Positions 6,931 through 13,304 of a stretch of 64,000 bases of DNA are shown piece after piece; the stretch's first letter is position 1; the number at the start of each line of letters is the position of its first letter. Position numbers and translations under genes: made by a program. Below the pieces are notes generated by a model. It saw only the letters and a program-made list of their open reading frames with translations, was not told the origin of the DNA and searched no databases. Location: assembly GCF_000337835.1 (NCBI RefSeq), contig NZ_AOLM01000008.1, forward strand, positions 124,001-188,000, read 5' to 3'. Origin of the DNA: Haloferax sulfurifontis ATCC BAA-897. Its GTDB lineage: Archaea; Halobacteriota; Halobacteria; Halobacteriales; Haloferacaceae.

Positions 6931-6949
6931 ACCCTCGCGTTTGTAAATA
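6931..6949 (-). repeat. Isolated origin-recognition-box-like sequence
   Basis: CCCTCGCGTTTGTAAAT in this stretch is identical over 17 bases to one box of the origin cluster at 11.6 kb and has the same orientation. It lies about 4.7 kb from that cluster, in the promoter region of the PNPOx-fold gene. It may be a satellite Orc1/Cdc6 binding site. Confidence 0.6.
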
Positions 6950-9777: not shown

Positions 9778-10439
9778 AGCGGCCACTCCTCTTGCCGCCA
9801 CGCGGCGTCCCAAAACAGGTACTCGTACTGCGCCGACGTGCGGAACAGGTCGCGGAAGCGCTCGCGGTCCGATTCGGTGGCGCTCGCGGCCACGTCGTCC
9901 ATGAGCGACTTACACCAGTCGGTGAGCTCGGTGAACTCGTCGCCGGCGTACATCTCGACCCACGCGGCGTACTGGTCGTGGTCCGAAACGCCCGCGTCGG
10001 CGAGTCGGCGACCCGTCTCGTTGAACCCCCACATACAGGGGAGCAGGGCGGCGACGATATCGCCGAACGAGCCGAGGGTCGCGGTGCGAACGAGGAAGTC
10101 CGTGTAGGCGCGGGTCGTCGGCGACGGCGTCGTCGCTTCGAGGTCTGTGGTGTCGATGCCGAACTCGGCGGCGTAGCTCCGGTGGAGGTCCATCTCCTCG
10201 TTGACGGTCGATTCGAGGAGGCTCGCGAACGTCCCCATCGAGTCGAACGTCGGGGCCTTCGCGGCACCGAGCGCGAAGAGGCGACTGTACTCGACGAGGT
10301 AGACGTAGTCCTGCCGCACCCAGTAGCGGAACGGCCCCTCGTCGAGGATCCCCTCCCCGAGTCGGGCGACCATCGGGTGGTCGAGGATGGCCGACCAGAA
10401 CTCGTCGGCCTCGTCGCGAATCGTGTCTGTGAACGCCAT
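9774..10439 (-). CDS. tenA: TenA family aminopyrimidine aminohydrolase / thiaminase II, Cys subtype
   Basis: A 221-residue TenA protein of normal family length. The segment LLPCMWGFNETG retains the catalytic Cys of the TenA_C subtype, and VRQDYVYLVEYSRLFALG is the N-terminal active-site helix. The enzyme hydrolyses aminomethyl pyrimidines released from damaged thiamine to hydroxymethylpyrimidine for resynthesis. It is the first gene of an operon with a Cys-less TenA and a symporter. No TPP riboswitch was recognised in the 212 nt upstream. Confidence 0.85.
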   Translation of the reverse strand: MAFTDTIRDEADEFWSAILDHPMVARLGEGILDEGPFRYWVRQDYVYLVEYSRLFALGAAKAPTFDSMGTFASLLESTVNEEMDLHRSYAAEFGIDTTDLEATTPSPTTRAYTDFLVRTATLGSFGDIVAALLPCMWGFNETGRRLADAGVSDHDQYAAWVEMYAGDEFTELTDWCKSLMDDVAASATESDRERFRDLFRTSAQYEYLFWDAAWRQEEWPL

Positions 10440-10651: not shown

Positions 10652-11218
10652 ATGTCGCACGTGAACGCCGTCGGGTCAATCGAGATTCAGAACGTCGTCG
10701 CTTCGACGGAAGTCCCGCTCGAACTCGACCTCGAACGCCTCTCACTCGATATGGACGGAACCGACTACGACCCGGAGAACTTCCCCGGACTCGTGTACCG
10801 AACCCGTGACCCGAAGTCGGCGTGCCTCGTCTTCCGGTCGGGGAAAATCGTCTGTACCGGCGCGAACAGCGTGGGCGACGTGAGCACGGCCATCGAAACG
10901 CTGTTCGGCGAGTTCGCCGACCTCGGTGTTCCGATTCCCGACGAGCCGGATATCACGGTTCAAAACATCGTGTCGAGCGCCGACCTCGGGGCGGCGCTCA
11001 ACCTGAACGCGTTAGCTATCGGTCTCGGTCTCGAAGCCGTCGAGTACGAACCCGAGCAGTTCCCCGGACTCGTCTACCGCCTCGACGAACCGAGCGTCGT
11101 CGTCCTGATGTTCGGAAGCGGGAAAATCGTGATTACGGGGGCGAAGCGGGTCGCCGACGCTGAAGCGGCCCTCGAAACCGTCGACGAGGACGTCCGCGAA
11201 CTCGGACTACTCGGGTGA
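10652..11218 (+). CDS. tbp: TATA-binding protein (archaeal TBP), plasmid-borne copy
   Basis: A 188-residue TBP of standard length made of two clear repeats. PENFPGLVYRTRDPKSACLVF with SGKIVCTGA is matched by PEQFPGLVYRLDEPSVVVLMF with SGKIVITGA. The phenylalanines that kink DNA are present in both halves, so it should be functional. Haloarchaea carry several tbp genes that pair with different TFB proteins. A TTTAAC box at about -30 suggests a leaderless transcript. It is the first gene left of the replication origin. Confidence 0.95.
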   Translation: MSHVNAVGSIEIQNVVASTEVPLELDLERLSLDMDGTDYDPENFPGLVYRTRDPKSACLVFRSGKIVCTGANSVGDVSTAIETLFGEFADLGVPIPDEPDITVQNIVSSADLGAALNLNALAIGLGLEAVEYEPEQFPGLVYRLDEPSVVVLMFGSGKIVITGAKRVADAEAALETVDEDVRELGLLG

Positions 11219-11319: not shown

Positions 11320-11470
11320 GACTAGTCCCTGATTCGTTGTTTGTTGTGTTATTATGTTATCTAGTACCATATTATTCAATTATTGTGTTACTGTGTTGTT
11401 GTGTTGAGTAGTAGAACTAGTAGTCTAGCTACTAGTGATAGTTTGGTGTGCTAGTTAGGAGAACAGCATT
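11320..11470. other. AT-rich candidate duplex-unwinding element with CTAG cluster
   Basis: The plus strand here is rich in T and G with few C, in sharp contrast to the GC-rich surroundings. It contains six CTAG tetranucleotides (11322, 11361, 11417, 11425, 11432, 11451). Two more lie among the origin boxes (11634, 11671). It is the only strongly AT-rich part of the origin and so the best candidate for strand opening. Confidence 0.6.
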
Positions 11471-12035
11471 AGGAGAACATTTGCAGAACGTTAGGAGAGC
11501 AGTACCGCGCCGTTCGATATGTGTCGAGAAGCCGTGGCCGGTCTTCGAGATGTGGGTGTCGTTCACGATTTGCCCGTCTGCGCTTGGGAGCACACACACA
11601 CCACCCTCGCGTTTGTAACGGCTACGCCAGTCCCTAGGGGAATTCGACACACCCCCTCGCGTTTGTAAATCTAGGGGCAAAAACCACCGATAATCCCCCG
11701 CTCTCCGACGCACACCCACACCGATTCGCGTTACATTCGCGAGGGTGGTGTGTCTGCACGGCCGCTTCCGTCGCTCGACGTTACAAACGCGACGGTACTC
11801 CCCCGTTCGATTACAAACGCGAGGGTGGTCTCTCGGAGACCGAGTTACAAACGCGAGTGTACCCCCACCCACCGTGTGTTCCTCGTGGCTGTCTCGCCCG
11901 TTACAAACGCGAGGGTGGTGTCTGACGGTCTTACTTGCGCGATACTACTCGTTGATCGTCGAGTACAAAATCAGGACCGAAATACCGCTCAAACGCCCGT
12001 ATTTGTCGCTGTTACAAACGCGAGTCCACCCCTTC

Positions 12036-12071: not shown

Positions 12072-13304
12072 ATGACATCGGACGAGAGCGAGGGTGGGAC
12101 TCGCGACCCGCTGTTCCGTTACGACCAACCCATCTTCGCGAACGAGGATATCCTCAAAATCTCTCATCTCCCCGGTCCCGACAAGATCGTCGGCCGCGAC
12201 GAGCACATGTCGAAAGTCGCACAGGCGCTCAACCCCGCCATCTTCGGACGCGAACCGACCCACCTGTTCATCTTCGGGAAGACGGGGTCGGGCAAGACGC
12301 TCACCGCCCGCCTCGTGAGCGAGCGGCTCCAACACGAGGCGGTCCGCGAGGACGTCGACGTCCGCATCGCCGTCATCGACTGCGGCGAACAGCACACCGA
12401 GGCGTCGGTCATCAAGACGCTCGCCTCGCAGGTCAACGACCCGTCGAAAAGCGGAATGACGATTCCCGAACGCGGGCTGTCGACCGGCGACTACTACAAC
12501 CGGCTGTGGCAGGTGCTCGACACCTGTTCGGACGTGACCATCGTCATCCTCGACGAAATCGACATGCTCCGCGACGACGAGGTGCTCCGGAAACTCTCGC
12601 GCGCGGGCGAGAATCAAAAGATTGTGGACTCGCGCATCGGCATCATCGGCATCTCGAACAAAATCGACTACCCCGAGGAACTCACGGAGCGCGTCAAGTC
12701 GAGTTTCGCCCACGACGAACTCGTCTTCCCGTCGTACGACGCGAACCAGCTCCGCGAAATCCTCGAAAACCGGAAGGACGCGTTCAAACCCAGCGTGCTC
12801 ACCGACGACGTGATTCCCCTCGCCAGCGCGCTCGCCGCCCAGGAACACGGCGACGCCCGGAAGGCGATTGACATCCTCCGGAACGCCGGCCGCATCGCGC
12901 GAAACGAGAGCGCCGAGACCGTCACCGACGACCACGTGCGGGCGGCCAAGGAGAAAAGCGAGGCCGACCGCTTCAGCGAACTCCTCGAAGGGACCGCCAC
13001 GCAGTCGAAAGCCGTCCTCTACTCGCTGGTCCTCCAGACCGGCGGCCGAAAGACCGCCGAAATCACGACGAACAAGATTTACCGGCAGTATCTCACCGTC
13101 GCCGACGACCTCGACATGGACCAGCTCTCCGAGCGTCGCGTGCAGGAACTCCTACAGGAACTCGACTTCCTCAACGTCATCCAGTCGGAGGTCCGCGGCC
13201 GCGGCCGCGGGCAGGGCGTCCACGGGACCCACCGCCTCCTCGAAGACCCGGACATCGTCAAGCGGGTGCTCCTCCGGGACAGCCGTATCTCCACGCTCGA
13301 ATAG
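12072..13304 (+). CDS. orc: Orc1/Cdc6-type origin recognition protein
   Basis: A 410-residue initiator AAA+ ATPase. Walker A GKTGSGKT is at residues 69-76, Walker B is VILDEIDML, sensor 1 is GISNKID, and a C-terminal winged-helix domain ends near VHGTHRLLEDPDIV. It binds origin recognition boxes and loads the MCM helicase. The frame is open far upstream through the origin repeats. The ATG at 12072 was chosen for its TATA box and because the family sequence (LFRYDQPIFANEDIL) follows directly. Its gene adjoins the box cluster, so it is the cognate initiator of this replicon. Confidence 0.95.
   Translation: MTSDESEGGTRDPLFRYDQPIFANEDILKISHLPGPDKIVGRDEHMSKVAQALNPAIFGREPTHLFIFGKTGSGKTLTARLVSERLQHEAVREDVDVRIAVIDCGEQHTEASVIKTLASQVNDPSKSGMTIPERGLSTGDYYNRLWQVLDTCSDVTIVILDEIDMLRDDEVLRKLSRAGENQKIVDSRIGIIGISNKIDYPEELTERVKSSFAHDELVFPSYDANQLREILENRKDAFKPSVLTDDVIPLASALAAQEHGDARKAIDILRNAGRIARNESAETVTDDHVRAAKEKSEADRFSELLEGTATQSKAVLYSLVLQTGGRKTAEITTNKIYRQYLTVADDLDMDQLSERRVQELLQELDFLNVIQSEVRGRGRGQGVHGTHRLLEDPDIVKRVLLRDSRISTLE

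Follow-up and report, generated by a model that had tools for sequence, protein, structure and literature searches.

The 64-kb window analyzed here lies on contig C8 (356 kb), from a Haloferax genome of 3.81 Mb, and it raises the question why CTAG, a tetramer that is otherwise rare in it, is crowded into a few hundred base pairs ahead of an orc1/cdc6 gene. CTAG is the target of a widespread orphan methylase (PMC5867850). As a kind, CTAG clusters at haloarchaeal orc1/cdc6 genes are already known: Blow et al. (2016) reported them upstream of these genes and suggested a Dam-like role (PMC4752239, Fig. 6D)—the analogy that the original prediction had put forward as its own. The running text of that work prints CATG and the figure legend CTAG (PMC4752239); GATC and CATG were considered as the true motif and rejected, neither being enriched at these origins. 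The published case for methylation control of archaeal replication was built on density profiles, and it was set aside for H. volcanii, where enrichment at the chromosomal origins is little and a methylation-free mutant grew normally.

Origin anatomy and the CTAG cluster

The initiator gene of the window (12072 to 13304, forward strand) encodes an Orc1/Cdc6 protein of 410 aa, which features an AAA+ domain, a Cdc6 lid, and a winged-helix domain, as judged by Pfam and TIGR02928 matches over cut-off. The origin recognition boxes upstream of it, identified by motif match, are inverted: two inward-facing cores at the left on the reverse strand (11607 to 11618 and 11657 to 11668, both TTACAAACGCGA) oppose six cores at the right on the forward strand, namely TTACATTCGCGA with two mismatches at 11731 to 11742, followed by those at 11781 to 11792, 11811 to 11822, 11845 to 11856, 11901 to 11912, and 12012 to 12023. 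Farther to the left, an AT-rich stretch at 11340 to 11460 is a candidate duplex-unwinding element on the basis of its composition and its position beside the boxes; in a composition scan, GC ranges from 0.25 to 0.48 across 11340 to 11520. Three imperfect forward-strand copies of GTTAGGAGAACAG were found by repeat comparison at 11454 to 11466, 11468 to 11480, and 11490 to 11502. The adjoining orc1/cdc6 gene, the inverted boxes, and the AT-rich stretch bear out the earlier reading of the locus as an origin and show it to be linked to Orc1/Cdc6. It lies between the initiator gene and a gene for the TATA-binding protein (TBP; 10652 to 11218), which ends approximately 100 bp before the first CTAG sites. 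A lone exact box core, TTACAAACGCGA, occurs at 6935 to 6946 on the reverse strand, 4.7 kb away from the origin and flanked by two divergent genes.

The initiator gene has a length of 1233 nt, exactly that of HVO_B0001, which is orc6 of H. volcanii and occupies positions 201 to 1433 of pHV3 (PMC2841640). The other Orcs of the same genome match orc1, orc2, and orc5 by length. Orthologues of the window's Orc are located on a 344-kb plasmid in H. larsenii and on secondary contigs in two Haloferax genomes of three contigs each. Because of the length match and these replicons, the gene is most likely the orthologue of orc6 on the mini-chromosome pHV3, and the origin is probably that of a pHV3-type mini-chromosome and not a chromosomal one. 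An assignment to oriC3 and orc2 was dropped: orc2 has 408 aa and fits another locus of the same genome. The pHV3 origin of H. volcanii is reported to be functional in literature cited by PMC3528665.

By direct count, the window contains 18 CTAG sites, eight of them inside 11322 to 11674 and 10 elsewhere; all eight positions given in the original prediction are exact, as is its estimate of about ten for the remainder. Six sites (11322, 11361, 11417, 11425, 11432, and 11451) form an array at 11322 to 11454, which has a GC content of 0.35 and counterparts at orthologous origins. This array occupies the AT-rich candidate unwinding stretch, outside the box array and 150 bp to the left of the boxes, whereas the other two sites adjoin the two leftmost boxes—a placement that agrees with the earlier description. 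Three of the six sites belong to a near-palindrome at 11416 to 11436, ACTAGTAG-TCTAG-CTACTAGT. The site at 11634 to 11637 lies amid the two leftmost boxes, about 439 bp before orc, and is retained in all Haloferax orthologues read; the site at 11671 to 11674, just inside the second box and about 401 bp before orc, is retained in approximately half of them.

In the remaining 63.1 kb of the window, CTAG occurs 10 times versus 57.6 expected from its own trinucleotides and is hence about six times rarer. The contrast with base composition claimed in the original prediction is right in direction, but it was overstated because the frequency of CTAG in this genome rises with AT content. Against a background of approximately 400 kb of sampled stretches, the mean number of CTAG per 353-bp window is 0.02 at a GC content above 0.65 and 0.83 at a GC content of 0.45 to 0.50. 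The excess at the origin nevertheless survives the comparison with AT-matched DNA of the same genome, on which the original prediction had been staked: eight sites represent an approximately tenfold excess (Poisson P ~3e-6 per window), and 5 is the highest count in the approximately 461 kb of DNA that served as control. Dinucleotide shuffles of 11322 to 11454 yield on average 1.14 CTAG versus the six observed, and none of 2000 shuffles reaches six. Part of the excess is therefore due to simple AT-richness, and the rest goes beyond AT-matched DNA. GATC is depleted more strongly than CTAG in the rest of the window (21 versus 259 expected) and is not raised at the origin, with a single occurrence in 861 bp; of the two tetramers, CTAG alone is raised. 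Over the whole window, the deficit of GATC is about twelvefold (22 versus 260 expected).

Orthologous origins in Haloferax and Natrialbaceae

The kilobase before the orthologous orc gene contains 4 to 10 CTAG sites in ten named Haloferax species and the window. In 10 of these 11 species, three or more CTAG fall inside a 100-bp span at a similar place, as had been anticipated for orthologous origins; in the AT-rich part, individual sites shift and multiply between species. In the 200-bp AT-rich part of the 11 orthologues, CTAG ranks first of 136 tetramers and is 10.6 times as frequent as in AT-matched DNA. In H. marinum (L009, orc start at 10001), approximately nine tandem copies of CTAAT follow the array, about 605 to 735 bp before the orc start, which suggests array growth by slippage.

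The orthologous Orc (66 to 71% identity) is found in 116 of 391 Halobacteria genomes, nearly always in single copy, and in Natrialbaceae it is often encoded on the main chromosome. In the 1300 bp examined upstream of orc, 39 of 45 Natrialbaceae origins have three or more CTAG inside 100 bp, with up to nine sites; two further arrays lie just past this limit, which brings the count to 41 of 45. The arrays are located upstream of the boxes, at a distance of 550 to 1650 bp from orc, and their CTAG sites are spaced by 4 to 13 bp—most commonly by 5 and 6 bp—with no fixed phase. In the 41 arrays, CTAG occurs 5.51 times per 150 bp versus 0.19, 26 times control, while GATC, CATG, TATA, and TTAA remain at 0.7 to 1.3 times control (CATG at 0.8 times). 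Dinucleotide shuffles of these arrays retain 1.7 CTAG versus 5.5 observed. A or T occupies 86% of the flanks of array CTAG, compared with 59% for CTAG elsewhere in AT-rich DNA, and CTA/TAG half-sites are 2.6 times enriched after the CTAG sites themselves have been masked. One complete Natrialbaceae genome of 3.8 Mb (G163) has no tight CTAG triplet other than the array. In alignable pairs, 122 of 123 CTAG bases are kept and the spacers are approximately 0.83 identical, numbers to be read with the pairs being non-independent and the repeats helping the aligner; the test is usable only above approximately 0.78 identity, below which the alignments are untrustworthy.

The CTAG cluster is hence a conserved cis-element of one Orc1/Cdc6 origin lineage, which comprises the pHV3-type origin of Haloferax and the orthologous, often chromosomal origin of Natrialbaceae. 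The element consists of a dense array of mostly A/T-flanked CTAG sites in an AT-rich stretch outside the boxes, the density of which is kept while sites come and go. Because of this position, density, and conservation, the array itself is very probably functional as an origin element. Compared with the published work consulted, three points appear to be new: the confinement of the array to a single Orc lineage, its anatomy of dense A/T-flanked sites, and the control for methylase independence at other origins.

The CTAG methylase and the origin lineage

The orphan CTAG-type m4C methylase that the original prediction had ascribed to Haloferax is encoded in the window's genome as P0001, an N4-cytosine methylase; from its SPPY motif, size, and Pfam family, it appears to be of the HVO_0794 type. 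Each of the 59 other genomes tested that have an orthologous Orc encodes the methylase, as do 15 of 15 Haloferax genomes. These 74 genomes offer no methylase-minus contrast, so that the co-occurrence of array and methylase proves little. Such a contrast exists at 80 other orc loci from 40 Haloferacaceae genomes, where CTAG clustering occurs at 5 of 41 methylase-plus and 4 of 39 methylase-minus loci. In five Natrialbaceae genomes, comparable clusters are found at 3 of 22 other orc genes versus 4 of 4 array-lineage orc genes in the same genomes. These 80 and 22 loci reject the proposal that all origins are clustered wherever the methylase is present. Of 15 loci with an orthologous Orc in methylase-bearing genomes of family f6, family f3, and f1 outside Haloferax, one carries an array; orthologous Orcs of approximately 70% identity occur without arrays. 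A substitute palindrome was sought in 18 array-less loci with an orthologous Orc, and none was found. Because most origins in the same genomes lack the array, as do some methylase-bearing lineages with an orthologous Orc, the array follows the origin lineage rather than the methylase.

The clusters of Blow et al. share with the present array the motif, the noncoding place before orc1/cdc6, and the proposed link to the orphan methylase. They were described by a density profile drawn from many origins, in which a genome could have clusters at several of its orc genes and clustering correlated with the methylase; here, one Orc lineage with a defined array structure and flank preference is concerned, and outside this lineage clustering does not depend on the methylase in Haloferacaceae. 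Ouellette et al. (2018) found CTAG enrichment in H. volcanii near oriC2 only and doubted its role (PMC5867850). That case also concerns a Haloferax origin, but it consists of a broad rise of both CTAG and GATC on a cumulative plot, whereas the present array spans approximately 130 bp and GATC is unraised. At the oriC2-type locus of the window's genome, the 1.4 kb preceding orc are free of CTAG.

Readings of the array and CTAG clusters elsewhere

We slightly favor, as a tentative reading, that the array is read via its m4C methylation, because the conserved motif is the exact target of the methylase and no other tetramer behaves alike. Counting against it are the normal growth of methylation-free H. 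volcanii (PMC5867850), the independence of clustering from the methylase at the 80 other Haloferacaceae orc loci, the single array among 15 loci of f6, f3, and non-Haloferax f1, and a flank and half-site preference that exceeds the four bases of the methylase target. The orphan CTAG methylase would mark the array, replication would leave it hemimethylated, and the change in methylation may alter how the initiator or another protein binds or opens the AT-rich stretch. This is likened to the clustered GATC sites of Escherichia coli oriC, where dense palindromic tetramers of an orphan methylase likewise lie in the origin beside the unwinding region, with Dam and SeqA acting on them. The two systems differ in the modification, m6A in E. 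coli versus m4C here, and in the abundance of the motif, GATC being common in E. coli and CTAG rare in haloarchaea. Furthermore, loss of Dam has clear phenotypes, whereas none is reported for loss of CTAG methylation. To our knowledge, there is no SeqA-like reader of CTAG m4C. The more specific version, in which the array would act as an m4C-dependent licensing switch—hemimethylated after replication and then bound or unopenable until remethylated—is rather unlikely; if true, it would be the first epigenetic replication control in Archaea, convergent with Dam/SeqA. In H. volcanii, approximately 89% of CTAG sites are methylated (PMC5867850). The array may well be partly unmethylated, because unmethylated CTAG sites of H. 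lucentense concentrate in low-GC DNA (PMC11001535). For methylation control in general, the results indicate where to look, namely at a single origin lineage. Its array is compact and shared by two families, and the replicon is suited to plasmid tests with or without the methylase.

Nearly as likely, and a serious contender, is an array that works independently of methylation. The origin's own Orc1/Cdc6, on double- or single-stranded DNA, a nucleoid protein, or another factor would bind A/T-CTAG-A/T for loading or unwinding. The A/T flanks and the half-sites, which exceed the four bases needed by the methylase, and the association with one Orc lineage (4 of 4 versus 3 of 22 other orc genes) argue for this binding. 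Strictly spaced, operator-like CTAG elements elsewhere in Haloferax make proteins that recognize CTAG half-sites plausible. H. volcanii is able to grow without origins, and methylation-free growth is therefore a weak test. With this proviso, the lack of a growth defect in H. volcanii stripped of all detectable methylation also speaks for binding (PMC5867850). Against it stand the unphased spacing of 4 to 13 bp, unlike that of a fixed operator, the identity of the motif with the target of the orphan methylase, and the orthologous Orcs of approximately 70% identity that have no arrays.

A role as transcriptional operator for the neighboring orc or TBP gene, rather than as a component of the origin, is improbable. 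The second orc gene of the same genome has three CTAG 10 to 23 bp before its start codon, and in H. lucentense the motif is overrepresented ahead of transcription starts (PMC11001535), as would suit an operator. The array, however, lies 550 to 1000 bp from the orc start and beyond the boxes, in the window as in Natrialbaceae, and it stays in place while the upstream neighbor gene varies between lineages. More doubtful still is a role in melting only, by which the TpA step of CTAG would give flexible, unstable DNA that eases duplex opening. The array does coincide with the part of the origin that is richest in AT, but the tetramer ranking rejects melting alone: TATA, TTAA, ATAT, and AAAA are at 0.4 to 1.3 times control versus 26 times for CTAG. 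Relaxed avoidance, in which selection depletes CTAG over most of the genome and AT-rich intergenic DNA simply regains the neutral frequency, would fit the some 35-fold rise from GC-rich to AT-rich DNA but is hardly credible and is rejected by the AT-matched windows (mean 0.83, none above 5) and the shuffled Natrialbaceae arrays (1.7 versus 5.5), along with a position conserved over two families.

The whole 3.81-Mb genome contains only three triple-CTAG clusters with gaps of up to 30 bp. Two of them are directly upstream of orc1/cdc6, at the window's origin and at the second orc gene, on contig C27; the third is a hairpin in the vicinity of a probable regulator. Of the remaining orc genes in this genome, most have no cluster. 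A hand count over nine Haloferax genomes gave 43 distinct clusters, of which 11 are situated no more than 1.5 kb upstream of an orc gene versus approximately 0.2 expected.

An element with the strict spacing CTAG-N4-CTAG-N22-CTAG-N4-CTAG is found repeatedly among Haloferax genomes, in several of them (L258, L259, L260, L261, and L262, at approximately 1960 to 2080); it sits between a PAS/GAF/BAT/HTH_10 regulator gene and its divergent neighbor, as well as close to a class II tRNA synthetase-like gene, and looks like an operator. A conserved cluster with a hairpin, CTAGGTACCTAGAGGTGG...CCACCACTAG, is present in most Haloferax genomes (L022 at 1501 to 1536, L046, L272, and L273), between a regulator-like gene and a small gene of approximately 115 aa. 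The main contig of genome G005 (L265, 1931 to 2054) carries nine CTAG in approximately 120 bp with no adjoining orc, and a serine-recombinase-like gene lies about 1.2 kb off.
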